The notes under the pieces were generated by a model that was not told where the DNA came from, made no database searches, and saw nothing but the letters and a program-made list of their open reading frames with translations. From a virus: 32,044 bases of DNA. The translations under genes and the position numbers were made by a program. Position 1 is the first letter of the stretch. Every line of letters starts with the position of its first letter. Of this stretch, positions 2,800 through 20,373 are shown one piece after another. The DNA lies in the IMG/VR virus record IMGVR_UViG_3300015263_000553, positions 1 through 32,044 of that record. One strand, given 5' to 3'.

Positions 2800-2819
2800 T
2801 CGCCAGCGCAAGGACGCGC

Positions 2820-4904: not shown

Positions 4905-4913
4905 GGGGATCTC

Positions 4914-5225
4914 GTGAAGAACATCATCGCTACGATCTCGGTCTCGCCTCAAACATTTCCGCCGGCGACGATCGTCGGACCTTACAGGTTGGCAATCGCT
5001 GGACCGAGGACCGAATCGCAGGACGTCGCCTATACTGGCTCAGCGGTCTCGGCGACGTTCGCGGATGTGCCGGACGGCATTTATACAGTTACGGCCGAGC
5101 TTCTGGATTCCGCCGGGGTTTTGTTAGGAAATCAGCTCTCGACGCAGGTCACAGTACAGGCGCAACCGACTGACATCATTTTACAGGTTCCAGCCGGGCT
5201 AACGGTGCAGGTTATCACGGCCTAA
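4914..5225 (+). CDS. Small beta-sandwich protein (Ig-like), unknown function
   Basis: A 103-residue protein starting at GTG 4914 with AAGGGGA about five bases upstream. The alternating hydrophobic pattern, a GIYTVTAELLDSAG stretch typical of Ig-like/fibronectin-like sandwiches, and the lack of helices, cysteines and signal peptide all suggest a single beta-sandwich domain. Its stop directly abuts the start of the next gene. It shares the AT-richer composition of the propeller gene. It could be an accessory domain for fibre attachment or virion decoration. I do not recognise a named family. Confidence 0.6.
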   Translation: MKNIIATISVSPQTFPPATIVGPYRLAIAGPRTESQDVAYTGSAVSATFADVPDGIYTVTAELLDSAGVLLGNQLSTQVTVQAQPTDIILQVPAGLTVQVITA

Positions 5226-5900: not shown

Positions 5901-5909
5901 GACGCTCAC

Positions 5910-6416
5910 ATGGCGCTTTACAAGATTTTTAATGGGCCTTTTCCGACGACTGCATCGCAGCTGGCGGTGACGACCGGCACGTCGATCAAGACGATGCTGC
6001 AGGTCAAGGGTGTGACTGCGGTGCGGATGAAGATCAAGGCGTGGGGCTGCTCGATGGACGGTGCCGCTGCCGCCGCCGGCGTCCAATGGAGCTTGCTAGA
6101 AACGGGGACGGTGTTCGCCACTGTCACGGCCTCCGCCGCCGCCGATATTCTCGCCTGGGATTCATTGGCCCTCGCGCAGGCGTCCACGACTTATTTTAGC
6201 GTCGGCACGGCCGCGACCGGGTACACCGCCACGGCGGAAGGATCGATCACGGCGACGCGTGTATTTGATTCGCAGTTCGTGCAGCCTGCGGGTGCGTATG
6301 CGTGGGAATTCTCGCTGGGAAATGAGCCGCACGTCGATGCGGTGAGCGCTTTGCGCATACGGGTCAAAGCGCAGGCGGCCGTAAATGCGCTCTGCTGGGT
6401 GCTGCTCGAAGTTTAG
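5910..6416 (+). CDS. Hypothetical virion-type protein, beta-rich
   Basis: A 168-residue protein rich in Ala, Thr and Val. Alternating strand-like segments run throughout (KTMLQVKGVTAVRMKIKAW, GYTATAEGSITATRVF), and the protein ends in a strand (ALCWVLLEV). There are no recognised catalytic motifs. It sits nine bases after the previous gene and four bases before the repeat-protein gene, so the genes are probably co-translated. GC content climbs back towards the phage average here, which puts one edge of the AT-richer segment close to 5900. It resembles small beta-structured head or fibre accessory proteins in general, but I cannot name a family. Confidence 0.55.
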   Translation: MALYKIFNGPFPTTASQLAVTTGTSIKTMLQVKGVTAVRMKIKAWGCSMDGAAAAAGVQWSLLETGTVFATVTASAAADILAWDSLALAQASTTYFSVGTAATGYTATAEGSITATRVFDSQFVQPAGAYAWEFSLGNEPHVDAVSALRIRVKAQAAVNALCWVLLEV

Positions 6417-6419
6417 ACG

Positions 6420-7085
6420 GTGGCGCGCCTCGGGAGGGCCCGCCCTCACAGACCATTACTAACGACGCGGCCAGTCTCGGCCGCACCAGCTGCGAGGAGC
6501 GAGACTGCATCGATCGATGCCGCCATCCGCGCGGCCCAATCTGCGACGGCGGGCATCGAGGCGGCGATCGAGGCGGCGCTAAGCGCATCGGCGTCGGCCG
6601 ATGGAGTAGTGCAGGCGCCGGGGACCATCACGGCGAGCATCGACGCGGCGATCCGCGCGGCGCTAACCGCGCAGGCCTCGCTCGACGCCGCGATCGTCGA
6701 GGCGACCGAGGTCACGGCATCGATCGACGCTTATGTGCAGGGCAGCGCAGCGGTCACGGCGAGCATCGACGCCGCGCTGCAGGCGGCGCAGGCGGCATCC
6801 GCAACGGTCGACGCGGCGATCCGGATCGCGCAGAGCGCGACCGCATCCATCGATGCAGCGATAGCGGTCGGGGGCTCGGCGACCGCCTCGCTCGACGCCT
6901 ACGTGCAGGCGGCCTCAATGCTGACGGCGAGCGTCGATGCAGCGATCCGAGTCGCGGCGGCTGCCGCGGCGAGCCTGGACGCATATATCAGCGATCCGTC
7001 GGTCGTCTCGGCGCGGCGGCAATTCACCGTCCGCGCGCGGCCAGGGTTCAGCGTGCCGGCGCGCGGCGATTTCACCGTCCAATGA
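6420..7085 (+). CDS. Alanine-rich protein with twelve 14-residue repeats
   Basis: A 221-residue protein (GTG start) in three parts: a basic N-terminus (1-28), twelve uninterrupted 14-residue repeats (29-196), and a C-terminal tail (197-221) with the echo FTVRARPGFSVPARGDFTV. The repeat consensus is TASIDAAIRAAQSA, with Ile/Leu/Val at repeat position 4 and mostly Ile/Val at position 8. Fourteen residues make two heptads, with Thr, Ile, Ile and Ala on the a/d positions. A long alanine-rich helical coiled coil is therefore the simplest structural reading, and a repetitive beta fibre is the alternative. No signal peptide is seen. It lies among other fibre-like genes, so a rod or spacer in a virion appendage is inferred. 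Confidence 0.6.
   Translation: MARLGRARPHRPLLTTRPVSAAPAARSETASIDAAIRAAQSATAGIEAAIEAALSASASADGVVQAPGTITASIDAAIRAALTAQASLDAAIVEATEVTASIDAYVQGSAAVTASIDAALQAAQAASATVDAAIRIAQSATASIDAAIAVGGSATASLDAYVQAASMLTASVDAAIRVAAAAAASLDAYISDPSVVSARRQFTVRARPGFSVPARGDFTVQ
6504..7007 (+). repeat. Twelve tandem 42-bp coding repeats
   Basis: The central part of the repeat protein is encoded by twelve 42-bp units with no insertion or deletion between them. The units are diverged at the DNA level but keep the motif encoding A-S-I/L-D-A and the unit length. Constant length with diverged sequence suggests selection on periodicity rather than very recent expansion. Confidence 0.8.
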
Positions 7086-7130
7086 TTCAACGCTCCGCGA
7101 TTTACGTGCGGGTGAACCGTAGAGGTAGCC

Positions 7131-7619
7131 ATGGCAGCGACAGTCCAGATCCTCGAAAAGAACGGCGCGGGACCGACCACGACGGATAAGACGAGCGGCA
7201 CCGTCCGGCACAAGAATGCCGACGATGCCACCGTCGACCTCAATAACCCGATGGTAAAGCCGGGCGCCGGCTCAGATTGGAGTTTCGAGAAGTGGCTGCG
7301 CTTCAATGTCAGCGGCGGGACGTATTCGCAGATTACCAACATCAAGGCCTACACCGACGGCGCGAACGGCTGGACCGGCGTCAATCTTTGGTGGAAGGCG
7401 GTCACGAGCTACGCGACGCCGGCCGAGGGCAGCTCGAGCGCCGGCTACGCGGACGCTTTCACGTACACCAGCGGCTCGCCGCTCACCCTCGGGGCGGGGC
7501 CCTACACCAGCACCGGCGAAAAAGCCGATCACCTGGTCTCCCTGATGGAGGTGACGAGCTCGGCCGTCGGCGGCGTGCTCGCGGCGGAGACGCTCACGAT
7601 CGCATGGGATGAGATCTGA
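7131..7619 (+). CDS. Phage structural protein, unknown function
   Basis: A 162-residue protein starting at ATG 7131, with AGAGG upstream in the 45-base gap after the repeat protein. It is Thr-, Gly- and Ser-rich and predicted to be mostly beta, with several aromatic residues (GWTGVNLWWKAV). No signal peptide or catalytic motif is apparent. Its stop overlaps the next start (TGATG). It heads a run of four tightly overlapping genes (7131-8735) that ends in the gpW-like protein, which suggests a joint neck or fibre-attachment role. The composition matches the main phage genome, unlike the 2820-5900 segment. Confidence 0.55.
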   Translation: MAATVQILEKNGAGPTTTDKTSGTVRHKNADDATVDLNNPMVKPGAGSDWSFEKWLRFNVSGGTYSQITNIKAYTDGANGWTGVNLWWKAVTSYATPAEGSSSAGYADAFTYTSGSPLTLGAGPYTSTGEKADHLVSLMEVTSSAVGGVLAAETLTIAWDEI

Positions 7620-7885
7620 TGAGCGCACCCGAGCCGATGAACATCCCGCCAAGCGCGCTGCAGATCGAGACCCATGAGGACGGCGCGCGCATAGGCACGA
7701 ACGGAAAAGGCGTCACCATCAGACTCGAGCCGGCGAACGGTCGCATTTTCAAGCGCCGCGCGATCAAGGGCGCGGGCTCGGCGGCGGCCCGGATGGTCGA
7801 GTGGCTCGTGGTGGAGCTCGATGCGGTCAAGGTCTACGTCGACGGCACCAATGTGGTCGTCACGTATGAGGACCGCAACCCGTGA
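7619..7885 (+). CDS. Small hypothetical protein
   Basis: An 88-residue protein overlapping its neighbours at both ends (TGATG at 7617-7621 and GTGA at 7882). It has an N-terminal region of short strands, a central basic helix (GRIFKRRAIKGAGSAAARMVEW) and C-terminal strands (AVKVYVDGTNVVVTYE). No known motif is visible. Conservation of the overlap arrangement supports it as a real gene of the late operon. The function is unknown. Confidence 0.55.
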   Translation: MSAPEPMNIPPSALQIETHEDGARIGTNGKGVTIRLEPANGRIFKRRAIKGAGSAAARMVEWLVVELDAVKVYVDGTNVVVTYEDRNP

Positions 7886-8178
7886 CCGTCGAGATCATCG
7901 GCGGCGCGCCGCACGGCGAGGTGCTCAAGTCGCCCGGTTCGACGGTCGACTACGTCTCGGACTGGTCGACCTACCTCGGCGCCGACACGATCAGCTCGGT
8001 GGCGTGGACCGTCCCGACCGGGCTGACCAAGGTCACGCAGAGCAACGACACCACCACCACGACGGTGCGCGTCTCGGGCGGGGCGATGGGCGCCGACTAC
8101 GACCTCACACAGGCCATCACCACGGCCGCGGGCGTCATCGAGCTCGCGACGATAAAGGTAAAGGTGCGCGACCTATGA
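7882..8178 (+). CDS. Small virion protein, possibly a fibre-tail adaptor
   Basis: A 98-residue protein with a GTG start overlapping the previous stop, and whose own stop overlaps the next ATG. It contains the pattern DWSTYLGADTISSVAWTVP followed by a Thr-rich strand and DYDLTQAITTAAG. I associate this layout with small Ig-like phage proteins often annotated as fibre-tail adaptors. If correct, it would link the neighbouring fibre-like proteins to the neck or tail. No membrane or signal segment is present. The family call is from memory of the pattern, so only moderately sure. Confidence 0.5.
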   Translation: MTVEIIGGAPHGEVLKSPGSTVDYVSDWSTYLGADTISSVAWTVPTGLTKVTQSNDTTTTTVRVSGGAMGADYDLTQAITTAAGVIELATIKVKVRDL

Positions 8179-8735
8179 CCGCAGCCATCCCGTCACGCGA
8201 GCCCGCGCGCCTGGTCGTCGGCGATACCTGGCGCTGGCAGCGCACGCTCGACGGCTACCCGGCCTCGGCCTGGACGCTGACATACTACGTCCGCGGCCCG
8301 AATGGCGAATTCACCATCGTCGCCGGCGCCGATGGCGACATTCACGATGTCACCGTCGCAAAGACCACTACCAGCGCCTATAACGCCGGCGCCTACAGCT
8401 GGACCGCGGTCGTCGACGACGGCGCAACGCAGCGCTTCACGGTCGAGACCGGCCGCCTCATCGAGCTGCAGCTCGACCCGACCAAGATTGGCAAGGGCTA
8501 CGACGGGCGCAGCCATGCGCGCCGCGTGCTGGATGCCATCGAGGCGGTGATCGAAGGGCGCGCCAGCAAAGATCAGGAGGAATACTCGATCGAGGGAAGG
8601 AGCCTAAAACGAACGCCTCTCGCCGAGCTCGTGAAGTTCCGCAACCGATACGTCGACCTGGTGCGGGATGAGGATGCGGCAGCGCGCATCAATAGCGGGC
8701 TGGATGGCGGCGGGCGCATCCAAGTGCGATTTTGA
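8175..8735 (+). CDS. gpW-like head-tail joining protein with extra N-terminal domain
   Basis: A 186-residue protein. The C-terminal 60 or so residues follow the gpW pattern: a helix, a short hairpin with the GRS/GR turn (EEYSIEGRSLKRT), a second helix and a basic, aromatic end. Lambda gpW (68 residues) plugs the portal so that the tail can attach, and its gene sits between the large terminase and portal genes, as here relative to the portal. The first 110 or so residues form a separate beta-rich domain (WTLTYYVRGPNG, GAYSWTAVVDDG) not present in lambda gpW. Start and stop overlap the adjacent genes (ATGA at 8175, TTGA at 8732). Confidence 0.65.
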   Translation: MTAAIPSREPARLVVGDTWRWQRTLDGYPASAWTLTYYVRGPNGEFTIVAGADGDIHDVTVAKTTTSAYNAGAYSWTAVVDDGATQRFTVETGRLIELQLDPTKIGKGYDGRSHARRVLDAIEAVIEGRASKDQEEYSIEGRSLKRTPLAELVKFRNRYVDLVRDEDAAARINSGLDGGGRIQVRF

Positions 8736-10381
8736 GCGCCATGGCTGGGGCCTTCAAGTTCGACGAGCCCGGCTCGCGCGTTCTGCGCGAGTGGAACGAG
8801 AAACGGGCGATCGAGCGAGCCATCCAGGCGCGCGCCAAGGCCGGCATGCGCCGCGAATGGTGGGACGGTGTCGTCGGCGTGGGGAATGGCGCGGGGTTCG
8901 CCGGCGGCGGCGTGGATCGATTGAGTGCGAGCCTGGCGCAATGGAGCGGCGGAATAAACGCCGATCTCGACAACGCGCTCCCGATCATGCGCGCAAGGGC
9001 CCGGCAGCTCGCCCAGAATACCGAATTCGGGCGGCGGTTTCTCAGCCTGGTCGGCACGAACGTGATCGGGCCGTCTGGACCGACCCTGCAGGTCCGGGCG
9101 ATGAAGGATTCCGGCCAGGGGCTGGATAAGATCGCGAATGATCTGATCGAAATCAATTGGGCCGAATGGTCCGCGCGTGCGGACGTGCGCGGTGTGATGG
9201 ATTTCGCGCAAATGCAGCGCGTCGCGGTGATGGGCGCGGCGCGCGATGGCGACGCGCTGCTGCGCATCGTGCGCCAGCGCAGTTTGCCAAACGGGATTGC
9301 GCTGCAGCTCCTCGAGGCCGATCGGCTCGACGAAACGCTCAATGGGCAGCTATCGAATGGCAACGCAGTCCGCCAGGGCGTCGAGATCAACAGCTTCGCG
9401 CAGCCGGTCGCCTATCACATCAAGACGTGGCACCCGGGCGAGCGCTACGAATCGCGCCCCGCGAAGGTCGAGCGCGTGCCGGCCGAGGAAATGATTCATT
9501 GTTTTCTGCCAATGCGGGCAGAGCAGGTACGCGGGTACACCTGGTTCCATGCCGTGTTGCTGCGCATGCAAATGCTGCACGCCTACGAGGAAGCGGCCGT
9601 TATTGCGGCGCGGGTCGGCGCTGCGAAAATGGGCGTTTTCAAGCGCAGCGAGGAAGCGAGCGGAGATTTGACGCAGCTCAGCAGCGGCACCGATGCGAAG
9701 GGCATCCCGCAAATGAGCGCGGCCCCGGGCGAGTTTCTCGAGCTCCCGATGGGCTACGAGCTGCAGAGCTGGAACCCGGAATACCCGCATGGAAATTTCG
9801 AGTCATTCCTGAAGGCTTGTTTCCGGGGAGTCGCGACCGGGCTGGACGTCGCGGCGCACAACCTCACCGGCGACATGACCGATGTCAACTATTCGAGCGC
9901 GCGGATCGCCGAGCTCAGCGAGCGCGAACAATGGGAGGTCCTGCAGAGCTGGTGGCTGCGCACCGTGACAATGCGCGTGTATTCGGCCTGGCTCGATAGC
10001 GCCCTGCTGCGCGGCGACATCACCTTCCCGATCGGCGGCAAGGCGCTGCCGTGGGAGAAGCTCACCAAGTTCGCGCGGGCCTCGCGATTCCAGGGTCGGC
10101 GTTGGCACTGGGTGGACCCGGCGAAGGAAATCGAGGCCGCCGAGCGCGCCGTGGCGCTGGGGCTCGCCTCGCGCACCGAGATCGCCGCCAGCCAGGGCCG
10201 CGAATTCGAGGACGTGGTCGACGAGCTCGCCCAGGAGAAGGCGCTCCTCGAGGCCGCAGGTCTCGGCTCGGACGTCAAAAAACCGCAGTCGTCGCCGGCC
10301 GCCGCCGAGCCGAGTGATGATCCAGGAGAGGAACCGACCACGCCGCCTAAAGCGGGCAACGGAAAAGGGAAAAAGCGATGA
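8732..10381 (+). CDS. Portal protein, lambda family
   Basis: Forms the dodecameric ring at one head vertex through which DNA enters and leaves and to which the tail connects. The 549 residues match the lambda gpB family in length. Family features are visible: the N-terminal helix with RARQLAQNTEFGRRFL, the NVIGPSGPTLQ turn, DGDALLRIV, LLEADRLDE, and the conserved VRGYTWFHAVLLRMQ segment before the long helices. The C-terminus is Pro/Lys-rich. The TTG at 8732 overlaps the previous stop; the ATG at 8741 (residue 4) is an alternative start. The stop overlaps the ATG of the capsid gene. Confidence 0.93.
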   Translation: MSAMAGAFKFDEPGSRVLREWNEKRAIERAIQARAKAGMRREWWDGVVGVGNGAGFAGGGVDRLSASLAQWSGGINADLDNALPIMRARARQLAQNTEFGRRFLSLVGTNVIGPSGPTLQVRAMKDSGQGLDKIANDLIEINWAEWSARADVRGVMDFAQMQRVAVMGAARDGDALLRIVRQRSLPNGIALQLLEADRLDETLNGQLSNGNAVRQGVEINSFAQPVAYHIKTWHPGERYESRPAKVERVPAEEMIHCFLPMRAEQVRGYTWFHAVLLRMQMLHAYEEAAVIAARVGAAKMGVFKRSEEASGDLTQLSSGTDAKGIPQMSAAPGEFLELPMGYELQSWNPEYPHGNFESFLKACFRGVATGLDVAAHNLTGDMTDVNYSSARIAELSEREQWEVLQSWWLRTVTMRVYSAWLDSALLRGDITFPIGGKALPWEKLTKFARASRFQGRRWHWVDPAKEIEAAERAVALGLASRTEIAASQGREFEDVVDELAQEKALLEAAGLGSDVKKPQSSPAAAEPSDDPGEEPTTPPKAGNGKGKKR

Positions 10382-12327
10382 GCAAAATCACCTTCGAGCG
10401 CACCCAGGACATCGAGGCGCGGGCCGGTGCGGACGATGCGGGCGTCGAAATGGCGATTTCGAGCGAGGCGCCCTATGAGCGCTGGTTCGGCATCGAGATC
10501 CTGCGCCACAGCCCCGATGCGGTGGACCTCTCGCGCCTGAACGACGGGCGGCATCCGCTGCTCGTCAATCACGACCGCGAGCTGCAGGCCGGCGTCATCA
10601 AAAAGGCCTGGCTCGACGACGACAAGAAGCTGCGCGGGCTGGCGAAGTTCTCGCGCAGCTCGTTCGGCAAGGAAATCGCCCAGGACGTCGAGGACGGCAT
10701 TCGCACTCTCGTCTCCGTGGGTTACGAAATCCTCGAAATCGAAGAAGTCGAGCCCGGCGAGCACGCGGGCGAGTTCGTGACAAAGCGCAAGCTCACGGGC
10801 GAGGACTTCGCGGCGCAAATGCGCCAGGAGCACGGAGAGCAATTCAATCGAGCCGGCCTGTCGGCCGCGCGCGCGAAGGGCTCGCCACCGCCGACCTTCG
10901 TGGTTACGCGGTGGAAACCGTACGAGGCATCGCTCGTCGCGATCCCTGCGGACGTGGAAGTGGGTGTCGGTCGTGCGGCTGTCGCCGCGGAAGCCGCACC
11001 GAAAGCAGTCGCTGCACCAGCAGTCGAATTTCCGAAACCTACTCCAAGGGCAATCATCATGAGCGAAGATCCAAAACCGAAGGACACCGGCCAGCTCGAG
11101 GCCGAGCGCCGCGACGCGATCCTGTCGCTGGGCGAAACATACGCCAAGTATATCCAGCAGAAGGACATCGCCGACGCGCTCCGCAACGGCAGATCGGTCG
11201 AGCAGTTCAAAGACTTCATCTTGCAGAAGATGGAGACGGCCCACACCGACGCGCGCGCGCTGCAAATCGGCATGACCGCGAAGGAAGTACAGCGCTATTC
11301 CCTGGGGCGCGCGCTGGTCGCTTCCGTGACGGGCGATTGGAGCAAGGCCGGCCTCGAGCGCGAATGCTCCGAGGCGCTCGCGAAGCTCGTCGGGCGCAGT
11401 CCCGAGGGGTTCTTCCTGCCGTTCGAGACCTTCAGCCGCGATTTTAACGTGGGCACCGGCACGGAAGCGGGCAACCTGGTTGCGACCGACTTGCGTGGTG
11501 ACTTGTATGTCGATGCGCTGCGGAATGCGATCGTGCTCGGCGGAATGGGCGTGCGGATCCTCACCGGCTTGACGGGTAACGTCGACATGCCGCGCAAGTC
11601 GTCGCCGACCAGCCTGGGCAGGCTGACGGAGATCGGCTCGGCCAGCGAGACCAGCCCGCTCACCGCTAAGGTGACGCTAAGCCCGAAGCGGGTCGGCGGG
11701 TACGTCGAGGTCTCAAAGCAGGCGCTGATCCAGTCGGCGATTCCGCTCGAGGGCATGATCCGCGACGATCTGCTCATGTCCGCAGCGGTCGAGCTCGAGG
11801 ACCAGGTCATTAACGGGAACGGCACGGCGCCGAATATCCTCGGCATCCGGAATTACACGACGATTGGCAGCACCACCGCGGGAGCGAACGGTGCGGCGCC
11901 AACGTGGGCCCACTTCGTCGACCTGGAAAGCGCCTGCGCCAACAGCAACGCCGAGCCCGACCGCCTGGCCGGGTACGTCACCAACACCAAGGTGCGCGGC
12001 AAGCTAAAGCAAACGCAAATGGGCACGAATCTGCCGTTCATCTGGATGAACGGCGCCCAGCCGGTCAACGGCTACCGCGTCGGCATCACCAACAACGTTC
12101 CGTCGAACCTTACGAAAGGCACGAGCACGACGGTGTGCTCCGCGGCCGTCTTCTCCTCCGATTGGTCGATGGCGGTGATCGGCCTTTTCGGCGCGCCGGA
12201 CGTGATCGTGGATCCCTACACCAAGGCCGACACCGGCCAGGTGAAAATCACGCTGAACCAGTTCAGCGACATGGGCATCCGGCAGCCGGCGGCGTTCGCG
12301 AAGATCGTCGACCTGCTCGCCAACTAA
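10378..12327 (+). CDS. Prohead protease fused to HK97-fold major capsid protein
   Basis: A 649-residue fusion of two normally separate head genes. Residues 1 to about 210 look like an HK97-type (S78) prohead serine protease, with NHD at 64-66 (His65) and VSVGY with Ser113 as likely catalytic residues. After an Ala/Pro-rich linker, a Lys/Glu-rich helical stretch (about 228-300) resembles the delta/scaffold region. The remainder is the major capsid protein, with typical HK97-fold segments such as TDLRGDLYVDALRNAIVL and EDQVINGNGTAPNILGI. An in-frame ATG at 11059 (Met228), with AAGGG about eight bases upstream, could start a separate 422-residue capsid product. A strong terminator follows, as expected for the most abundant virion protein. 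Confidence 0.88.
   Translation: MSKITFERTQDIEARAGADDAGVEMAISSEAPYERWFGIEILRHSPDAVDLSRLNDGRHPLLVNHDRELQAGVIKKAWLDDDKKLRGLAKFSRSSFGKEIAQDVEDGIRTLVSVGYEILEIEEVEPGEHAGEFVTKRKLTGEDFAAQMRQEHGEQFNRAGLSAARAKGSPPPTFVVTRWKPYEASLVAIPADVEVGVGRAAVAAEAAPKAVAAPAVEFPKPTPRAIIMSEDPKPKDTGQLEAERRDAILSLGETYAKYIQQKDIADALRNGRSVEQFKDFILQKMETAHTDARALQIGMTAKEVQRYSLGRALVASVTGDWSKAGLERECSEALAKLVGRSPEGFFLPFETFSRDFNVGTGTEAGNLVATDLRGDLYVDALRNAIVLGGMGVRILTGLTGNVDMPRKSSPTSLGRLTEIGSASETSPLTAKVTLSPKRVGGYVEVSKQALIQSAIPLEGMIRDDLLMSAAVELEDQVINGNGTAPNILGIRNYTTIGSTTAGANGAAPTWAHFVDLESACANSNAEPDRLAGYVTNTKVRGKLKQTQMGTNLPFIWMNGAQPVNGYRVGITNNVPSNLTKGTSTTVCSAAVFSSDWSMAVIGLFGAPDVIVDPYTKADTGQVKITLNQFSDMGIRQPAAFAKIVDLLAN
11059..12327 (+). 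other. Possible internally initiated major capsid protein
   Basis: An in-frame ATG at 11059 lies at the protease-capsid boundary, with AAGGG at 11046-11050 giving a workable ribosome-binding site. Initiation here would produce 422 residues, a normal size for an HK97-type capsid precursor including its scaffold-like N-terminus. This would supply excess capsid subunits over the protease fusion. It is inferred from the start context only; proteolysis of the fusion at the linker is the alternative. Confidence 0.45.
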
Positions 12328-12353
12328 GCGGCGCAAGACCGCTGCAGCACAAG

Positions 12354-12385
12354 GGGCGCCCCCGGGCGGGGGCGCCCTTTTCTTT
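12354..12385 (+). terminator. Intrinsic terminator after the capsid gene
   Basis: A perfect 10-bp GC-only stem (12354-12363 pairing with 12368-12377) with a four-base loop, followed by TTTTCTTT. It lies 27 bases after the capsid stop and 22 bases before the methyltransferase gene. It should limit transcription into the modification genes. Confidence 0.9.
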
Positions 12386-12406
12386 ACTACCCGGGAAAGG
12401 ACATGA

Positions 12407-13177
12407 ATGAACCTCGAAGCGCTACGCGCGCTCGGCCTGGTCGAGACGCGCGCGTGCCGGCACGGGAAAATGAGTTTCCTGCGCACGGACCAATGGATCG
12501 CCCAGGCACTGGGCTATTACGGAGAATTCTCGCAGGCGGAGATCGACGTCTGGGACACCCTGCTGCGCGAGGGCGACAACGTCGTCACGGCGGGCGCCAA
12601 CATCGGCGCCCATGTCGTCTGGTTCGCCAAGCGGGTCGGCGGCGGGCGTGTCATCACGGCCGAGCCGCAAGGGGTGCTCTATGAAATCCTCCAGGAGAAC
12701 ATCGCGCAGAACGAGCTCGCGAACGTCGAAGCGCACCGCGCCGCTCTTGGACGCGATCGCGCCCGAGCCGCTCTCCCGGCCGTCGACTACCGATACAGCT
12801 TCAGCTTCGGCAGTCTCGGCGCCGCCGATGTCGACCAACTCGGCACCGCCGCGGTGGTGGTGGACGTGGTGACGATCGACGAGCTCCTCGACGGGCGCCC
12901 GGCGCGTCTCATCCACCTCGACGTCGAGGGCGGCGAGGTCGAGGCTCTGCAGGGCGCCTCGGGCACGATCACGCGGCACCGGCCGTATCTGTACCTGGAG
13001 TGCGACCGGCCGGGGCAGTCCGAGACGCTTTTTCGCGCGCTGGGCGCGATCGGCTACGAGGCGCTGATGCACCGGGCGCCGCTCTACAACCGGAGGAACT
13101 TCGCGGAGAACGGGCTGAACATCTTCGGCGATACGGTGTCGATCTCCCTGCTCGGGATTCCGAAGGGGGCCGCGTAA
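12407..13177 (+). CDS. FkbM-family methyltransferase
   Basis: A SAM-dependent O-methyltransferase of the FkbM type, 256 residues, probably methylating a sugar or a glycosylated product. The ATG at 12407 has AAAGGA five bases upstream. The SAM-binding motif is modified: the usual DVGANIG reads VTAGANIGAHVVWFAK (about residues 63-78). The acidic loop AEPQ follows. The family's second signature, IHLDVEGGEVEALQGA, is at about residues 168-183. The product ends with a C-terminal extension containing YNRRNFAENGLNIFGD. It overlaps the next gene by one base. Enzymes of this family often accompany glycosyltransferases, as here. Lying between the capsid and connector genes, it may modify a virion component, but the substrate is unknown. 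Confidence 0.85.
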   Translation: MNLEALRALGLVETRACRHGKMSFLRTDQWIAQALGYYGEFSQAEIDVWDTLLREGDNVVTAGANIGAHVVWFAKRVGGGRVITAEPQGVLYEILQENIAQNELANVEAHRAALGRDRARAALPAVDYRYSFSFGSLGAADVDQLGTAAVVVDVVTIDELLDGRPARLIHLDVEGGEVEALQGASGTITRHRPYLYLECDRPGQSETLFRALGAIGYEALMHRAPLYNRRNFAENGLNIFGDTVSISLLGIPKGAA

Positions 13178-14709
13178 TGGTTTGGCGACCGACGGACCCG
13201 GAGGGCAACGAGGCGGCAAAGATCGCCTGGGACGTGCTGCCCTATATCGGTCAGAGCGGATTCGACATCGGGTGCGGGCCGAGCAAGGTCTTCCCGCACC
13301 TGATCGGCGTCGACAATCTGCGCGATCAGCAGCTGTTCGGCGTGGCGATGAAGCCCGATTTTGTTGTCAAGGACTGCGCCCGCATGGCAATGTTCTCGGC
13401 GGGGTGCATGGACACGGTCTTCTCGAGCCACACGCTCGAGCACCTCGAGGACCCGGGCGCGGCCCTGGCGGAATGGTGGCGGCTGCTCGCCGAGGGCGGG
13501 CACCTGGTCCTGTACCTGCCGCACAAGCGCTTCTATCCGAACATCGGCGAGCCGGGCGCCAATCCGGACCACCGGCATGACTTCCTGCCGGAGGACATCG
13601 TCGCGCTGATGCGCGAGCGGGCGCCGGACTGGACGCTGCGCGTCAATCAGGAGCGGAACGGCGGGCGGGAGTACAGTTTCCTGCAGGTTTACCGGAAGGA
13701 GGCGGACGGCGCGGGGCAGCAGATCGCGAAGCCTATCAAGGGCAAGCGCGCCGGCGTCGTGCGCGTGGGCGGGCATGGCGACGCGCTCTGGGCGGGCTCG
13801 GCCTGCTGGCACCTGAAGCGCGAGGGCTACCACGTCACGGTGTACGCCTCGAAGCACGGCGCCGAGGTGCTGCGGCACGACCCGAGCATCGACGAGATCT
13901 TCGGGCTCCCGGACGGCGCGCTTTCGGAGGGGGATTTCCTGGCCTGGCGCTGCCACCAGGCGGTCAAGTTCGACCGCTGGGTCGATCTCCTCGGGAGCGT
14001 CGAAAACCGGCTGCTCTTCCACGAGACGAGCAACGAGTTTTTCCAGCCGCATCGGGTGCGGCACATGCTCGCGAGTCGCAACTACCTGGAGGCCGTGCAC
14101 GACTACGCCGGCGTCCCGCACGAGTGGCACCAACGCTTCTATCCGACCGAGGCGGAACGCGAATGGGCGCGCAAGATGCGCGCGATGCTCGACGGTCCGG
14201 TGGTAGTCATCAACCCGAGCGGATCCGGCCCGGTGAAATACTGGCCGCACTCGCAGCGGCTGATGGAGCTCCTCGCCGAGCAAAGGATCTACAGCATCGT
14301 GCTCGGTGACGTGCGCGACGACTCGGTCGTCGGCTGTGAGCCCTACGGCATCTTCGTCGGCATGGAGTGGCCGGTGCGCGCGGCGCTCGCCTACACGCAG
14401 CTCGCCGATGCGGTGGTGGCGACCGAGAGCCTGGTGGCGAACGCGGTGGCCTTCGAGGCGATGCCCAAGGTGGTGATCCTGAGCCACAGCAGCAACGAGA
14501 ACCTGACCAAGCACTGGACGAACACGGCGGCGGTCGAGGCGCCCGGCCTGGCCTGTCACCCGTGCCATCGCATCCATCCGCCCGTGTTCAACTTCTGCGC
14601 GCAGGACCAGACGACCAAGGCGGCCGCCTGCCTCGCGATGGCGCGGCCGGAGCGAATCGCGATGCTCATCACCGAGCTGGTGAAGTCGCGCGCGGCCCGG
14701 GCCGCGTAG
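13177..14709 (+). CDS. Methyltransferase-glycosyltransferase (GT9-like) fusion
   Basis: A 510-residue two-domain enzyme. Residues 1 to about 175 form a class I SAM methyltransferase of the Methyltransf_11 type: DIGCGPSK (30-37), GVDN (44-47) and SSHTLEHLED (83-92). From about residue 190 the sequence follows the GT-B glycosyltransferase pattern of family 9 (heptosyltransferase-like): an N-terminal strand with VRVGGHGDALWA, and a second Rossmann half starting VVVINPSGSGPVKYWP with the Lys found in that family. A late cysteine-rich stretch (CHPCHRIHPPVFNFC) is unusual. The ATG at 13177 overlaps the FkbM stop, with AAGGGGG upstream. It probably transfers and methylates a sugar together with the FkbM enzyme; target unknown. 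Confidence 0.8.
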   Translation: MVWRPTDPEGNEAAKIAWDVLPYIGQSGFDIGCGPSKVFPHLIGVDNLRDQQLFGVAMKPDFVVKDCARMAMFSAGCMDTVFSSHTLEHLEDPGAALAEWWRLLAEGGHLVLYLPHKRFYPNIGEPGANPDHRHDFLPEDIVALMRERAPDWTLRVNQERNGGREYSFLQVYRKEADGAGQQIAKPIKGKRAGVVRVGGHGDALWAGSACWHLKREGYHVTVYASKHGAEVLRHDPSIDEIFGLPDGALSEGDFLAWRCHQAVKFDRWVDLLGSVENRLLFHETSNEFFQPHRVRHMLASRNYLEAVHDYAGVPHEWHQRFYPTEAEREWARKMRAMLDGPVVVINPSGSGPVKYWPHSQRLMELLAEQRIYSIVLGDVRDDSVVGCEPYGIFVGMEWPVRAALAYTQLADAVVATESLVANAVAFEAMPKVVILSHSSNENLTKHWTNTAAVEAPGLACHPCHRIHPPVFNFCAQDQTTKAAACLAMARPERIAMLITELVKSRAARAA

Positions 14710-14744
14710 GGCCGGGTGGCTTGTTGTCCTTCCCGGGGCAACTT

Positions 14745-14784
14745 CCTGCACCCTTCACTAGTTTGAGGGTGCAGGTTTTTTATT
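14745..14784 (+). terminator. Intrinsic terminator after the modification genes
   Basis: A perfect 10-bp stem (14745-14754 pairing with 14766-14775) with an 11-base loop, followed by TTTTTTATT. It lies 35 bases after the glycosyltransferase stop and 11 bases before the next start codon, so tail genes downstream need readthrough, antitermination or another promoter. Confidence 0.9.
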
Positions 14785-14794
14785 CGAGACGCCT

Positions 14795-15082
14795 ATGACC
14801 GTCGAATCGGCAGCCGATCGCGCTGGAATGCTCGCAGACTGGGAAAGCGCCGGCTACGGCGGGACGAAAACCGTCTCGGGCGTTTTTCTGAACGGCTACG
14901 CGGAGGCGGCGGTCGGCCTGGTCGGCGTCGGCGGCACCGAGCCGCGCTTCGTCTGCGCGGCGGCGGACGTTGATGCCGACCCGACCGGCAAGTCGCTCGT
15001 GATCGACGGCACGACCTGGACAATCATTCGAGGCGAGCCGGATGGCACGGGATTGATGCGATTGGTCCTCGCGGCGACCTGA
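14795..15082 (+). CDS. Head-tail connector, FII-like
   Basis: A 95-residue protein matching the layout of lambda gpFII and related head completion proteins that form the attachment surface for the tail. The visible pattern is a helical N-terminus, a first strand ending in VSGVFLNGY, a GVGGTEPRFVCAAADV segment, then GKSLVIDGTTWTII and a final PDGTGLMRLVL. The ATG at 14795 comes 11 bases after the terminator T-run. The stop overlaps the next ATG (TGATG), which is typical of the connector pair. Size and gene order support the call; sequence similarity to lambda itself is weak. Confidence 0.7.
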   Translation: MTVESAADRAGMLADWESAGYGGTKTVSGVFLNGYAEAAVGLVGVGGTEPRFVCAAADVDADPTGKSLVIDGTTWTIIRGEPDGTGLMRLVLAAT

Positions 15083-15537
15083 TGGCAAATCACGTCCACA
15101 AGCAATTGCGCGACGCGGCGGTCACCGCGCTGACGGGCCTCACGACCACCGGGGCGAACTGCTTCGGCTCGCGGGTGTATCCGCTGCCGGCGGCGACGAC
15201 GGCGGCGCTCAAGGTCTACGTGCAGAGCTCGGAGGCCGAGGTGATCGAGGTCAGCGATCCCGCGGTGTACCAGGACACCGTCGAGCTGCGCGTCGAGGCT
15301 GTCGCGAAGGCGGCGTCGGGGTTCGACGACACGGTCGACCAGATCAAAAAGGAAGTCACGATCGCGCTTTCGGGCGGGCTCACGGTCGGCAGCGCGACGG
15401 TGGAGATCGACTATCTCGGCAGCGACGTGGAATTCGACGCGGAGACCGAGAAGCCGGTCGCGTCGTGCGTGATGCGTTTCGAGGCGGTGTTGTTCTGGTC
15501 GGCGGATGCGCCCGACGTTTTGCAGTCTTCCACATAG
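15082..15537 (+). CDS. Tail terminator/completion protein, U-like
   Basis: A 151-residue protein that would cap the tail tube at its head end and stop tail growth. It follows the gpU/DUF3168-like pattern. A first helix (HKQLRDAAVTAL) is followed by the SRVYPLP loop, a strand with LKVYVQSSEAE, and then a long acidic helix-strand region with YQDTVELRVEAVA. The protein ends in a beta strand (CVMRFEAVLFW). It is placed between the FII-like connector and the tail tube gene, the usual order. No unusual features are seen. Confidence 0.72.
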   Translation: MANHVHKQLRDAAVTALTGLTTTGANCFGSRVYPLPAATTAALKVYVQSSEAEVIEVSDPAVYQDTVELRVEAVAKAASGFDDTVDQIKKEVTIALSGGLTVGSATVEIDYLGSDVEFDAETEKPVASCVMRFEAVLFWSADAPDVLQSST

Positions 15538-15548
15538 GAGTCTAGGCA

Positions 15549-16202
15549 ATGGCAAAGGTAAAAGTGCAAGGCATGACCCTTGCGATCGCCACCGCGTTCG
15601 CCGCCACCAAGAACATGACGGCGGTGACGAACGCGAGCCCCGGCGTCGCGACGCTCGAGGCGAGCCACGGCATCGTCAACGGCGACATCTTCGAGATCCT
15701 GACGTCGGGATGGCCGCGGCTGGCGAATCGCGTCGTGCGGGCCGCGAACCTCTCGACGAACGACGTCGATCTCGAGGGCGTCGTCACCACCGACACCGAT
15801 CTCTACCCCGCCGGCGAGGGCGCGGGCACGATCCGCGAGATCTCGACCTGGACGGCGATCACCCAGCTCCGGCCGGACTTCACGGTGTCGGGCGGCGGCA
15901 CCCGAAAAACGGAGGTCACCGAGGTGACCGACGTGCGCGCGATCAATCTGCCGATCCTGATCGAGGCGGTCGCGCTCGAGTTCAATGGCAACTGGGATCC
16001 GAGCCTGCCCTGGTGGTCGGCGGTGCAGTCCGCGAGCGATTCCAGCGCGCAAACGCCGTTCCGCTGGACGCTGCCTGGCGGCCTGACGATCTACGGAAAC
16101 GGCTATTGGTCTTTCAACGACGAGCCGAACAACGACGGCGGCGTCGCGACTTACCGGCTCTCGCTCGACCTCACGGCGAAGTCGATCACCTACACGACCT
16201 GA
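15549..16202 (+). CDS. Major tail tube protein
   Basis: A 217-residue structural protein likely forming the stacked hexameric rings of the tail tube (lambda gpV role). AGGAG at 15536-15540 precedes the ATG. The first part contains an insertion with ASPGVATLEASHGIVNGDIFEI, a ring-surface-like beta domain. The second part has the strand arrangement of tube proteins, ending in YRLSLDLTAKSITYTT. It lies between the tail terminator and the assembly chaperones, which is diagnostic by position. The family match is by pattern and synteny. Confidence 0.8.
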   Translation: MAKVKVQGMTLAIATAFAATKNMTAVTNASPGVATLEASHGIVNGDIFEILTSGWPRLANRVVRAANLSTNDVDLEGVVTTDTDLYPAGEGAGTIREISTWTAITQLRPDFTVSGGGTRKTEVTEVTDVRAINLPILIEAVALEFNGNWDPSLPWWSAVQSASDSSAQTPFRWTLPGGLTIYGNGYWSFNDEPNNDGGVATYRLSLDLTAKSITYTT

Positions 16203-16203
16203 C

Positions 16204-16668
16204 ATGGAACCGGAAACCCTCGACGCCTTCGAGCGCAAGCTCCGGGCCGCGCGCGAGTTCGAGCACCGCATCGAGCACGAGCGCGGCACTGCGATATTCC
16301 GGGTGCGGCTACCGACGCCTGGCGAGCAGCGGCTCATCGCGGGGCCGTTCTTCAGGGGCAACACCATCCCCGACGGCAACCTCGCGGCATTCAACCGCAA
16401 GCTCGCCGAGACGGTGGTCGTCGGCTGGTCCGGCGTCACGAGCCGCGACCTGTCGGGCGAGAGCGATTCGCCGGTCGGATTCAGCGACCGTGCGCTGCGG
16501 ATCCTGCTCGACGAGCGCCCCGACTGGCAGGACGAGATTCTCGAGCACGCGATCGTCGAGAAGCGCCGCCGCGAGGAAGCGCTCGAGGCCGACCGAAAAA
16601 ACTCATCGAGCGGGTCACCTGGGAGCTCAACTCCCGCGAGGCGGCCCGCCTCAAAGCGATCGGCATAG
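16204..16668 (+). CDS. Tail assembly chaperone, gpG-like
   Basis: A 154-residue protein, the unshifted product of the G/GT pair that coats the tape measure protein during tail assembly and is absent from the finished tail. The body is helical and charged. The last 21 or so residues (a Ser/Arg/Pro-rich tail) lie after the slippery site and look like non-selected readthrough. It starts two bases after the tail tube stop. A fraction of ribosomes should shift at 16596-16602 to make the longer GT form. Confidence 0.82.
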   Translation: MEPETLDAFERKLRAAREFEHRIEHERGTAIFRVRLPTPGEQRLIAGPFFRGNTIPDGNLAAFNRKLAETVVVGWSGVTSRDLSGESDSPVGFSDRALRILLDERPDWQDEILEHAIVEKRRREEALEADRKNSSSGSPGSSTPARRPASKRSA

Positions 16669-16856
16669 ACATTTTCGGGCCGGCCCCGGAGCTCAGCCCC
16701 ACGGCCGCCGAGGCGCGCACGCTCTACGCGGCAATGGGCGGCTGGCGGCCCGAAGCGCTGGCGGCGACCGTCGTGGCGCTCGAGATCCCGGTGCGCTTCG
16801 GCCTGGTCGAGCGGCTGCGCACCATCCACCAGGCCATCCAGGAGCTCGCCGAATGA
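16204..16856 (+). CDS. Tail assembly chaperone GT, made by -1 frameshift
   Basis: The frameshifted product joins residues 1-133 of the G-like protein to 84 residues read in the -1 frame (16602-16853, stop at 16854-16856), 217 residues in total. The -1 frame has good coding character with no start of its own. It begins LIERVTWELNSREAARLK and ends in LRTIHQAIQELAE. In lambda, the T domain recruits tail tube subunits to the tape measure complex. Its stop overlaps the start of the gpZ-like gene. The call rests on the slippery heptamer, its exact frame, and synteny before the tape measure gene. Confidence 0.82.
16596..16602 (+). promoter_or_regulatory. Programmed -1 ribosomal frameshift site
   Basis: The heptamer A AAA AAC is in the correct phase (zero-frame codons CGA AAA AAC), a classical X-XXY-YYZ slippery site. 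Seven bases downstream, GCGGG (16610-16614) can pair with CCCGC (16633-16637); an alternative stem, GGGAG (16621-16625) with CTCCC (16631-16635), is also possible. Either might stimulate slippage. Confidence 0.85.
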
Positions 16857-17428
16857 GGGTCGACGTGACCTCGAATCTGCGCGCGGTGGTCGCCGAGGTG
16901 AAGGGCGAGTATCCGAAGATCGTCGCCCGCGCCGCCTCGAGCGCACTGAATCGCGCGGCGACGACGGTGCGCAAGGAAGCGAGCCAGGAAATCCGCAAGG
17001 TCTACGCGGTGAGCTCGTCGGGCATCAAGTCGCGCCTGCGCATCCGCAAGGCGAGCCCGAGCAAGCTCGAGGCCGTCGTCAGCGCCGAGGGCCGGCCGCT
17101 CAGCCTGGCGCGGTTCAAGCCCCGCCAGCGCAAAACCGGAGTCTCGGTGGAGATCAAGCGCGGGCAGCGCAAACTCATCAAGCATGCCTTTCAGATCCCG
17201 GGGCGACCCGGCGTGTGGCTCCGCGTCGAGGACCAGCGCACCCGCAAGCCCCGGCACAAGCGGGTGCGGCAGACCGGCTCGGATCTGCCGATCGCCTTTC
17301 TGACGACGGTCAGCATTCCCTCGGCGTTCTCGAGCGACGCGGTGTTCCGGGCGCTCGAGCGCGTGGCCTTCGCCGCCTTCGACAAGAACTTCCGGAGCGA
17401 GCTCGCGTTCCGACTCGGGAAACGATAG
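16853..17428 (+). CDS. Minor tail protein Z-like
   Basis: A 191-residue, strongly basic protein of the lambda gpZ family, which is needed for correct joining of tails to heads. The gpZ pattern is clear: an N-terminal helical repeat (ASSALNRAATTVRKEASQEI), VSSSGIKSRLRIRKA, a PLSLARFKPRQ segment, VSVEIKRGQRKLIKHAFQ and a C-terminal helix. The ATG at 16853 overlaps the GT stop. In lambda, Z lies before U and V. Here it lies between the chaperones and the tape measure gene, a rearranged order. Confidence 0.8.
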   Translation: MRVDVTSNLRAVVAEVKGEYPKIVARAASSALNRAATTVRKEASQEIRKVYAVSSSGIKSRLRIRKASPSKLEAVVSAEGRPLSLARFKPRQRKTGVSVEIKRGQRKLIKHAFQIPGRPGVWLRVEDQRTRKPRHKRVRQTGSDLPIAFLTTVSIPSAFSSDAVFRALERVAFAAFDKNFRSELAFRLGKR

Positions 17429-19519
17429 ATGGCGACACGCGACCCTAACTTCCGGATCCGGGCCACCGACGACACGCGGGCCGCGTTCGCCTCGGTATCC
17501 TCGGGCCTGGGCGGCTTGCAGGGCAAGGCCGCTGCGGTCGGCAACGCCTTCGGCGGGCTGCGCACCGTCGTCACCGGCCTGGTCGCGACGCTTGGCGCCG
17601 GCGCCGCGTTCCAGGGGCTGCGCAACATCACCCAGGGATTCGACGAGCTCTCGAAGAGCGGCCAGAAGATCGGCTATTCGACCGAGCAGCTCTCGCTCCT
17701 GCGCTACAACGCCGAGCGCGCCGGGGTCGATTTCGAGCGCCTGGTGACCGGCCTCGGCAAGTTCAACACCACGCTCGTGGAAGCGCAGGACCAGACGAGC
17801 GAGCAGGGCAAGCTCCTCAAGGCGCTCGGCGTCGACATCAACCATGGCCCGCAGAAAGCGCTGCGGGACCTGGCGGACGCCTTCGCCGACCTCGAGGACG
17901 GCGAGGTCAAGACCGCGGCGGCGGCGAAGATCTTCGGCGAGCGGGTCGGGCGGGACATGATCCCGCTGCTGAACCAGGGCGCCGCCGGGTTCGACAAGAT
18001 GGAGGAAAAGGCCCGGCGGTTCGGCCAGGTGCTGGACGAGGAGACGGGCAAGGCGGCCGAGGCGTTCAACGACAACCTCGAGGACATTGGGCTGCTGACG
18101 ACCGGCATCGCCCGCAATATCGTCGTGGGCATGGTGCCGGCGCTCGAGGATCTCACCGCGGCATTTGCCGACTCCGCGGTCGAGACGGAAAGATGGCAGC
18201 AGTTCGGGCGCGACCTGGGCGATCTGCTGCGCGAGACGGCAGTCCTTGGCACCAGGGTCGCCGGCGTATTCCAGGTCGTCGGCACGAGCCTCGGCGGCCT
18301 GGCCGCGGCGGCGGCTGCCGCGGTGCGGGGCGAGTTCGGCCAGATCCCGGGGATTTTCCAGGAGATCGTCGCCCAGCGCGATCGCATCGTCTCGGACACC
18401 GAGGAGCGCGTCGCGCGCCTGCGCGGCCTGGTGAAGGCGGAGGACTTCGGCGAGGATTTCGCCCCCACCGGCCGGGGCGGCGCGAACCGCCAGGCGGCGA
18501 TCTTGAATGCGCTCGCCGGCAATGCGAAGAAAGCGAAGAAAGAAACCGACGATTTCAAGCGTGCGCTCGAGTCGCTCAATGCCGAGCTGAACCGCGAGCA
18601 GGCCGAGGGCTCCAAGGTCCTCGAGATCATCGGGCAATACGAGCTCGGCACGCTCAAGGTCACCGAAGCCCAGAAAGACCAGCTCGTCGCCGTCGCCGCG
18701 AAAATCGACCTCTACAAGGAAGATCAGCGGGTCCAGGAGGAAGCGGCCAAGGCGGCCGAGGAATTCGCCAAGCGCACCATCGCGGCGGCGCAGGAACGGG
18801 CTCGCGCGATCGAGCAGCTCCTCGGTGCCACCAAAACCGGCCGCATCGAGGAGAACCGCCGGCAGTTCGCCCTGGTGGCGGCCGAGCTCGAGCGGGGCGG
18901 CGAGAACGCCTCGAAGGCCCGCGAGGCGATGCGGCTCCTCGACGAGGAGCTCGCCTCGATCGCGGGCAAGACCGACAACGTGACCCAGGCCTGGCAGGAG
19001 CTCGGGCCGGTGTTCGTCAGCGCCTTCGAGGATGCGATCGTCGAGGGCGAGGACTTCCGCGACGTGCTGAACGCCCTCGAGAAGGATCTCCTGCGCATCG
19101 GCACGCGGGCCTTTGTCACCGAGCCGCTCGGCGGGATCTCCTCGGAGTTCTTCAAGGGGCTGCAGAAGAACGGGCCCGGCGGATTCCTGAACCTGCTCGG
19201 GCTGGGCGGCGGCGGCGCCGCGGCGGCCGGCGCAGCCAGCGGCGCGCTCAGCGCCGCGGATCTTGCGACGGCGTTCGTCGGGTTCCAGCACGGCGGCTCG
19301 TTCTCGGTCGGCGGCTCGGGCGGCGCCGACTCGCAGCTCGTGGCGTTCCGCGCCACCCCGGGCGAAAAGGTCACCGTCAACCCGCCGGGCGGCGGCGGGT
19401 CGGGCAACACCGTCAACATCGTGGTGAACGTGCCGCAAAACACCAGCGGCGCATCCGCCTCGCAGATCGCCACCGAGGTCGGCCGCGCCACGACTCGCGC
19501 ATTGAGGCGCAACGGATGA
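17429..19519 (+). CDS. Tail tape measure protein
   Basis: A 696-residue protein that sets tail length and is probably ejected ahead of DNA. It begins immediately after the previous stop. The N-terminal part (about 1-230) has the family's conserved segments, including a hydrophobic stretch at about 40-62 and QKIGYSTEQLSLLRYNAERAG-like helices. A long charged coiled-coil region covers about 350-540. The C-terminus is Gly-rich with the family's FQHGGSFSVGGSGGADSQ and a final NIVVNVP segment. At about 0.15 nm per residue the tail would be roughly 100 nm long, a short siphovirus tail. This size is an inference from the usual scaling. Confidence 0.92.
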   Translation: MATRDPNFRIRATDDTRAAFASVSSGLGGLQGKAAAVGNAFGGLRTVVTGLVATLGAGAAFQGLRNITQGFDELSKSGQKIGYSTEQLSLLRYNAERAGVDFERLVTGLGKFNTTLVEAQDQTSEQGKLLKALGVDINHGPQKALRDLADAFADLEDGEVKTAAAAKIFGERVGRDMIPLLNQGAAGFDKMEEKARRFGQVLDEETGKAAEAFNDNLEDIGLLTTGIARNIVVGMVPALEDLTAAFADSAVETERWQQFGRDLGDLLRETAVLGTRVAGVFQVVGTSLGGLAAAAAAAVRGEFGQIPGIFQEIVAQRDRIVSDTEERVARLRGLVKAEDFGEDFAPTGRGGANRQAAILNALAGNAKKAKKETDDFKRALESLNAELNREQAEGSKVLEIIGQYELGTLKVTEAQKDQLVAVAAKIDLYKEDQRVQEEAAKAAEEFAKRTIAAAQERARAIEQLLGATKTGRIEENRRQFALVAAELERGGENASKAREAMRLLDEELASIAGKTDNVTQAWQELGPVFVSAFEDAIVEGEDFRDVLNALEKDLLRIGTRAFVTEPLGGISSEFFKGLQKNGPGGFLNLLGLGGGGAAAAGAASGALSAADLATAFVGFQHGGSFSVGGSGGADSQLVAFRATPGEKVTVNPPGGGGSGNTVNIVVNVPQNTSGASASQIATEVGRATTRALRRNG

Positions 19520-20373
19520 GCTTCATCGAAACGCCGGCCTTCCCCGACCGGATCGCGGCCAACATGGAAGGTGGGCCCACCTGGGCGACCCGCGTCGTCG
19601 TGCTGCAGAGCGGGCACGAGCAGCGCAACATCGAATGGAGCGCGGCGCGCATGCGCTACAACCTCGGCACCGCGATCAAGTCGGCCGCCGAGCTCGTCGA
19701 GGTGCTCGCCTGGATGCGCTGCCTCCGCGGCCGGGCGCACGGGTTCCGGATCCGCGACCCGATCGATCACTCGGCGACCGTCGCCAATGGCTACGTCGGA
19801 ACCGTGGGCGTCGGGGACGGCACGCCGACCGGGCAGCTGCACAAGTATTACTCGGTCGGCGCGCTGAACGAGGCGCGCCAGATCAACAAGCCACGCACCG
19901 GCACGGTATCCTTTCTGTACGACGGCAGTCCGATCACACCCTCGGCGCTGGACACGACGACGGGGGTCGTCACCTGGTCGGCATTCGCCTCGCAGTCGGT
20001 CGTGACGGTCACGCCCGGCGCCACCACCGACGTCGAGCTCGCCGCCAATCTCTCCGGGCTCCTCGTCGGCGACAAACTCTATCTCTCCGGGCTCACCGGC
20101 ACCATCGGCGCGGCGCTCAATGGCCTCGCGCATACCGTATTGACGATTAGCGGCGGCTCGAGCGAGATCTACGAGCTCGACATCGACACCACCGGGCTCG
20201 CCTACACCTCCGGCGGCACCGGCGCTTTTTATCCGCAGGCCTCGAAGAGCCTGCGCTGGGCGGGGCAGTTCGACGTGCCGGTGCGTTTCATGAACGACGC
20301 CATGGCGCTGATGATCCAGACGACCAGATTCCAGCAGTGGAATGACATCCCGCTCGTGGAGATCCGGGTTTGA
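19516..20373 (+). CDS. Distal tail protein, DUF2460 family
   Basis: A 285-residue tail-tip protein of the type found as the first baseplate gene in the Rhodobacter gene transfer agent and many lambda-like phages of proteobacteria. The start MSFIETPAFPDRIA overlaps the tape measure stop. Family features include GHEQRNIEWSAARMRYNLG near residue 35 and CLRGRAHGFRIRDPIDHS near residue 75. Near the end are KSLRWAGQFDVPVRFMND and a terminal strand, IPLVEIRV. An insertion of about 100 residues in the second half (PGATTDVELAANLSGLLVGD) is beta-rich. It probably forms the ring at the tail tip. Confidence 0.82.
   Translation: MSFIETPAFPDRIAANMEGGPTWATRVVVLQSGHEQRNIEWSAARMRYNLGTAIKSAAELVEVLAWMRCLRGRAHGFRIRDPIDHSATVANGYVGTVGVGDGTPTGQLHKYYSVGALNEARQINKPRTGTVSFLYDGSPITPSALDTTTGVVTWSAFASQSVVTVTPGATTDVELAANLSGLLVGDKLYLSGLTGTIGAALNGLAHTVLTISGGSSEIYELDIDTTGLAYTSGGTGAFYPQASKSLRWAGQFDVPVRFMNDAMALMIQTTRFQQWNDIPLVEIRV

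Follow-up and report, generated by a model that had tools for sequence, protein, structure and literature searches.

Gene content of the locus

The window analyzed here is an entire IMG/VR virus record of 32,044 bases, and Pfam and PHROG matches give it a lambda-type gene order (Table 1). A protease-major-capsid fusion gene lies immediately upstream of two overlapping genes, one for an FkbM-family methyltransferase (P0001) and one for a methyltransferase-glycosyltransferase fusion (MT-GT; P0002). The tail terminator gene is followed by the major tail protein and tape measure genes. A tRNA scan of the window found none. The 702-aa product of positions 2796-4904, between the terminase and portal genes, has weak matches to NHL/beta-propeller repeats and none to PHROGs; the place is unusual for such a gene.

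Table 1. Features of the window and of related loci (locus name before the colon where a feature lies outside the window)
Feature	Position	Strand	Basis
GpA terminase gene	685-2799		
Portal gene	8732-10381		
Major capsid gene, N-terminal protease-like domain fused to HK97-type capsid domain	10378-12327	+	PF05065 E 1e-27; phrog_617 E 1e-113
Ser/Thr-enriched patch, capsid residues 483-518, weak candidate acceptor	11824-11931	+	5 enriched columns within 40 residues
Intrinsic terminator 1, behind capsid gene	12354-12385	+	hairpin fold; hairpin counts in relatives
21-base gap before FkbM start codon	12386-12406	+	Shine-Dalgarno-like GGAAAGGA; too short for a usual promoter
FkbM-family methyltransferase P0001, 256 aa	12407-13177	+	PF05050 E 5e-14; TIGR01444 E 2e-26
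MT-GT fusion P0002, 510 aa	13177-14709	+	ORF from ATG 13177
SAM methyltransferase domain, N-terminal in P0002, residues about 1-175	13177-13700	+	PF08241 E 2e-10
GT-B glycosyltransferase domain, GT9 (heptosyltransferase) type, residues about 186-510	13732-14709	+	predicted structure; PDB matches
Four invariant cysteines, C460-x2-C463-x10-C474-x10-C485	14554-14631	+	74/74 non-redundant relatives
Intrinsic terminator 2, behind MT-GT gene	14745-14784	+	fold z = -4.0
Head closure protein Hc1, next structural gene after MT-GT	14795-15082	+	PF05354; phrog_82
Tail terminator protein	15082-15537	+	phrog_4204
Thr/Ser-rich beta protein of second phage type	L012:8244-8651		
Alternative cassette loci	L302:7202-9153, L327:8771-10701, L325:6787-8040, L330, L331, L328, L291, L294, L295, L304		

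P0001 is a clear member of the FkbM methyltransferases (phrog_8156, TIGR01444), scoring above the curated cut-offs of both PF05050 (53.2 bits against 22.7) and TIGR01444 (93 bits against 37.7). It differs from known members in the setting of its gene, which is flanked by a phage capsid gene and a glycosyltransferase gene, and it has no close match among FkbM proteins of cultured phages, as tblastn against 50,697 deposited phage genomes (INPHARED) returned no relatives. The FkbM stop codon shares one base with the MT-GT start ATG at 13177 (TAATG). The initial annotation had described an FkbM gene overlapping an MT-GT fusion between two hairpins, and the open reading frames bear this out.

Terminators and expression

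The stem of terminator 1 consists of 10 perfect base pairs (GGGCGCCCCC/GGGGGCGCCC, 12354-12377), or of 13 pairs when the flanking A-T and G-T pairs from 12351 are counted, and its tail is TTTTCTTT, reaching 12385. It is strong in absolute terms (score 34.5, attained by 0 of 40 shuffles), and its 66-nt fold (z = -1.3) is unexceptional for so GC-rich a sequence. The stem of terminator 2 (CCTGCACCCT/AGGGTGCAGG, 14745-14775) has TTTTTT directly 3' of it, and none of 200 shuffles was equally stable. Fold analysis thus agrees with the two strong terminator hairpins placed here at the outset. The suggestion that no room exists for a usual promoter before the first ATG also held, given the short gap and a consensus scan of positions 6000-20000 that found no sigma-70-like promoter, although host promoters may differ and other types are possible.

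That the two terminators enclose a cassette, as was also proposed, did not survive comparison with relatives. Among phages of the window's capsid type, a significant hairpin lies 3' of the capsid gene in 37 of 59 with MT-GT and in 49 of 66 without it; hairpins with a U-rich tail number 18 and 25, respectively. Since the capsid-gene hairpin is as common without MT-GT as with it, terminator 1 is a property of the capsid gene. A significant hairpin 3' of MT-GT was found in 23 of 129 relatives, and one with a U-rich tail is rare (6 of 129, the window and its relative L105 among them). On these counts we rejected a cassette bounded by two terminators as the defining feature of the locus. It is plausible that MT-GT is expressed at a low level, by readthrough past terminator 1.

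Short leader ORFs lie between the capsid-gene hairpin and MT-GT in L105 (3427-3461) and L106 (1477-1595). Their last bases, TGATG or TAATG, overlap the start of MT-GT, which suggests that translation may be coupled even where FkbM is absent.

The MT-GT fusion protein

The N-terminal domain of P0002 matches Methyltransf_11 (PF08241) at 41.4 bits against a cut-off of 21.2. Residue conservation was assessed in 74 MT-GT sequences, each less than 95% identical to the others, and the SAM-binding glycine motif is intact, with D30 and G32 present in 74/74 and G34 in 73/74. No Pfam glycosyltransferase model, GT9 (PF01075) included, matched the C-terminal half at E <= 0.01; a paralog in L015 matches PF01075 at only E 0.005, below the cut-off. 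The AlphaFold2 model has a pLDDT of 85.6, and its top PDB matches in Foldseek are 3tov (E 4e-13), 1psw (E. coli WaaF), WaaC and TibC. A sequence profile of the glycosyltransferase half also retrieves 3tov (E 5e-4), with the GD motifs aligned. Invariant in this half are D202 (of the GD motif), S350, K354, E417 and N422, together with the four cysteines. P0002 thus resembles the GT9 proteins WaaC, WaaF and 3tov in predicted fold and N-lobe motif, but is 12-14% identical to them, lacks a Pfam GT9 match, carries a fused methyltransferase and is encoded in a phage late operon.

TibC glycosylates protein serines; its candidate catalytic base is Asp-110, its Thr-226 and Lys-230 sit at the donor phosphate, and an iron finger is formed by four of its cysteines (PMC4358343). 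P0002 shares a predicted GT9-like GT-B fold with the TibC/AAH autotransporter heptosyltransferases, and its GD-motif aspartate, (S/T)xxxK motif and four cysteines in the C-terminal part may be the counterparts of theirs (PMC4358343). From motif and spacing, we infer that D202, S350 and K354 are equivalent to Asp-110, Thr-226 and Lys-230 of TibC. The cysteines are a possible metal-binding finger in a partly poorly modelled region (residues 464-472 are poorly modelled, and part of the cysteine region falls below pLDDT 50). Unlike TibC/AAH, whose N-terminus is a beta-barrel and whose partner gene is an autotransporter, P0002 begins with a SAM methyltransferase and is partnered with a phage capsid gene, and its cysteines are spaced CxxC-x10-C-x10-C rather than CxxC-x15-C-x11-C. 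On these three grounds we rejected its classification as a TibC-type BAHT.

For MT-GT, dN/dS was 0.07-0.21 in nine of eleven pairs and 0.29-0.40 in the pairs window/L105 and L105/L106. These values, well below 1, indicate that the gene is maintained by selection. In L031, a second, partial set of MT-GT-like ORFs (4899-5429 and 5858-6058), possibly a duplication, lies directly behind the full MT-GT.

Relatives and genome position of MT-GT

Searches with tblastn found no relatives of P0002 in 50,697 deposited phage genomes (INPHARED) or in 72,556 plasmids (PLSDB); the divergent MT-GT of L015 gave only two weak INPHARED matches, to a methyltransferase. Successive scans of IMG/VR yielded 15, then 517, then at least 575 confirmed stretches, some of which may match the methyltransferase part only. 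The best 80 of the 517 and the best 80 of the at least 575, ranked by similarity to the query, were kept. A further fifteen or so long matches came from GTDB genomes, most of them of Beta- or Gammaproteobacteria; Paraburkholderia rhynchosiae, Paraburkholderia sp. C35 and Aromatoleum anaerobium are among the bacteria hit, and the hosts found are Gram-negative.

Capsid genes were assigned by iterated profiles, and ORF calling in this GC-rich DNA was simple. A major capsid gene lies upstream of MT-GT in 122 of the 136 non-redundant (<95%) kept loci. In 59 loci it belongs to the window's capsid family and is separated from MT-GT by 0-1143 nt (median 127). In another 63 it belongs to an unrelated family, phrog_1357, found with portal phrog_1216, and the gap is 435-5761 nt (median 1.6 kb). 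This second phage type resembles, by its portal, Vibrio podoviruses such as 431E46.1. Eleven of the other 14 loci have less than 2.2 kb of upstream sequence; the remaining three (L259, L246 and L196) have 4-9 kb and no recognized capsid gene, and their downstream ORF sizes resemble those of other loci. The initial annotation had linked a sugar-plus-methyl modification to the capsid gene, and the position of MT-GT in relatives upholds this link.

FkbM homologues of the P0001 cluster occur beside MT-GT in four loci among the kept relatives (the window, L153, L015 and L182), in all four between the capsid gene and MT-GT. In L153, FkbM lies behind the same kind of hairpin and overlaps MT-GT, as in the window. 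L105, the closest relative among the matches listed, has the order capsid gene, terminator, MT-GT, terminator, and no FkbM. The distribution of FkbM on the MT-GT tree requires four changes, i.e. four separate placements. FkbM is therefore an optional accessory gene, and the constant part is MT-GT. The FkbM/MT-GT pair had been proposed as a unit and was rejected because FkbM is present in so few loci. A check for random placement in relatives, as the initial annotation had suggested, gave no such pattern for MT-GT.

Trees were built with FastTree and their deep branches are tentative. On the tree of the window's capsid type, the presence of MT-GT changes three times at a constant position, and in one clade of 38 capsids MT-GT is never absent.

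The slot behind the capsid gene

Ten loci of the window's capsid type that lack MT-GT carry a different sugar/methyl set at the same place. It begins with an MptE-like protein, a name that rests on weak Pfam matches in two loci, followed in some by glycosyltransferase phrog_1962 with or without FkbM and in others by a Methyltransf_11 gene; several of the contigs stop before the slot is complete. Phages of the second type can carry additional GT2, GT9-like or MptE/methyltransferase genes in this slot.

In three podovirus-type loci, the capsid gene itself carries an interruption at a shared site (profile position about 82-97; L032:7429-8441, L037:2857-3763 and L014:7086-8016). Rfam detects a group I intron in the capsid gene of L032 (8115-8399) and L037 (3435-3762).

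Candidate acceptors

We looked for a capsid insertion common to all MT-GT-bearing phages that could serve as acceptor, and none was clear; small indels and the weak Ser/Thr patch were all that emerged. The patch is present in all three independent capsid clades with MT-GT, is equaled by 3 of 264 control triples and was chosen post hoc; as an acceptor site it is a weak lead. Of the 63 loci of the second phage type, 48 have, as the first ORF after the capsid gene, one for an all-beta protein rich in Thr and Ser (24% S+T). The family of this protein comprises the L012 protein and 64 relatives and is sometimes duplicated. No solved-structure homologue was found at E <= 0.001, the matches being generic beta-sandwiches. 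This protein is possibly a head decoration protein and the sugar acceptor.

Proposed function of MT-GT

We think it reasonably likely that the MT-GT enzyme is expressed late and attaches a methylated sugar to a protein of the virion head. It would be made late from the head operon and would act on the capsid protein or on a protein of the capsid surface. The GT9-like domain would take its sugar from a nucleotide donor, for which ADP-heptose is our best guess, and attach it to Ser/Thr residues, and the N-terminal SAM methyltransferase domain would methylate the transferred sugar, with FkbM adding a further methyl group in the window phage and a few others. Readthrough of the late operon past the capsid-gene terminator would provide little enzyme for much substrate. 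The sugar is possibly heptose; sugar and target, like catalytic activity, acceptor and expression level, are what we infer.

The case for a head protein draws on gene order, domain architecture, predicted fold, invariant residues, purifying selection and co-localization, all read from sequence. MT-GT follows the capsid gene in nearly all kept loci and in two unrelated capsid families, its presence changes three times at one position and the 38-capsid clade is never without it, FkbM joined it four separate times in the same place, and other sugar/methyl sets fill the slot in the ten relatives that lack it. The GT9 fold matches, which include a protein heptosyltransferase, the invariant GD motif, S350/K354 and cysteines, and the low dN/dS point the same way, as do the place of the Thr/Ser-rich beta protein and, weakly, the capsid patch. 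Set against this are the sampling of relatives by similarity to the query and the missing shared acceptor insertion in the capsid protein.

Another consideration on that side is that the linkage within each phage type may reflect vertical inheritance with the head module, because a single branch of the MT-GT tree separates the two capsid types. This branch also favors an explanation that we regard as unlikely, in which the slot is a tolerant insertion site and the enzymes are unrelated to the capsid, carried along with the head module. Homing endonucleases occupy the capsid-adjacent slot too, and other gaps carry insertions, e.g. that between the portal and capsid genes in L004. However, three MT-GT changes at one position, four FkbM placements and an alternative cassette exceed a neutral expectation, and the alternative-cassette families had no match elsewhere in the loci searched.

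GT9 enzymes act classically on LPS, which also counts against a head protein as target. Slightly less probable again, in our judgment, is an action of the enzymes on the host cell surface, in which LPS or another glycan would be altered during infection or in a lysogen, with receptor masking or superinfection exclusion as the outcome. The LPS heptosyltransferases WaaC and WaaF both belong to GT9 and match the P0002 model, and the hosts are Gram-negative, but MT-GT lies in a late head operon with no recognized promoter, follows the capsid gene in two phage types that are unrelated, and is found neither at the edge of a prophage nor next to an immunity region. Modification of virion DNA (a hypermodified base protecting against restriction) is highly improbable: phage glycosyltransferases acting on DNA are known (cited in PMC12619734), but the late head-operon position, the GT9-type fold and the fused Methyltransf_11-type methyltransferase speak against it, and the window ORFs searched, a part of the total, include no nucleotide-hypermodification family.

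A bolder extension of the head-protein reading, tentative and in our view rather doubtful, is that the phages have, immediately after the capsid gene, a dedicated capsid-glycosylation slot in which unrelated transferase sets (the MT-GT9 fusion; MptE-like, glycosyltransferase and FkbM; added GT2, GT9-like or FkbM genes) are exchanged, changing the sugar coat of the head. MT-GT would then act both as a protein O-heptosyltransferase and as a sugar methylase, and would have a metal finger; such a combination has not been described before.

Relation to known systems

Most of what is known about virion glycosylation in tailed phages comes from mycobacteriophages. In Che8 and Rita, phage-encoded glycosyltransferases and sugars on capsid and tail-tube proteins have been reported (Freeman et al. 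2023, as cited in PMC12619734 and PMC11256854), and the related phage Maravista is reported to have its glycosyltransferase genes close to the genome's 3' end rather than next to the capsid gene (same sources). Such systems share with the window a phage-encoded glycosyltransferase, predicted in the window, which has a single MT-GT9 fusion locked to the capsid gene. No phage capsid heptosyltransferase was found in the literature searched, of which coverage was partial. Like morons and lysogenic conversion genes, the genes described here are accessory genes in a structural operon with flanking terminators; in contrast to morons, they showed no promoter of their own in the consensus scan (other types are possible), and MT-GT is a core gene kept across deep divergence rather than sporadic.

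It is probable that phages with MT-GT place a methylated sugar on their own virions. If so, a widespread and so far unnoticed enzyme family, present in hundreds of uncultivated phages and unmatched among the deposited phage genomes, serves to glycosylate and methylate the heads of phages of Betaproteobacteria and other hosts, and the capsid-adjacent position would be a simple marker for finding such phages. Copies of MT-GT are carried by the cultured strains Aromatoleum anaerobium LuFRes1 and Paraburkholderia rhynchosiae WSM 3937, so that the idea is directly testable.
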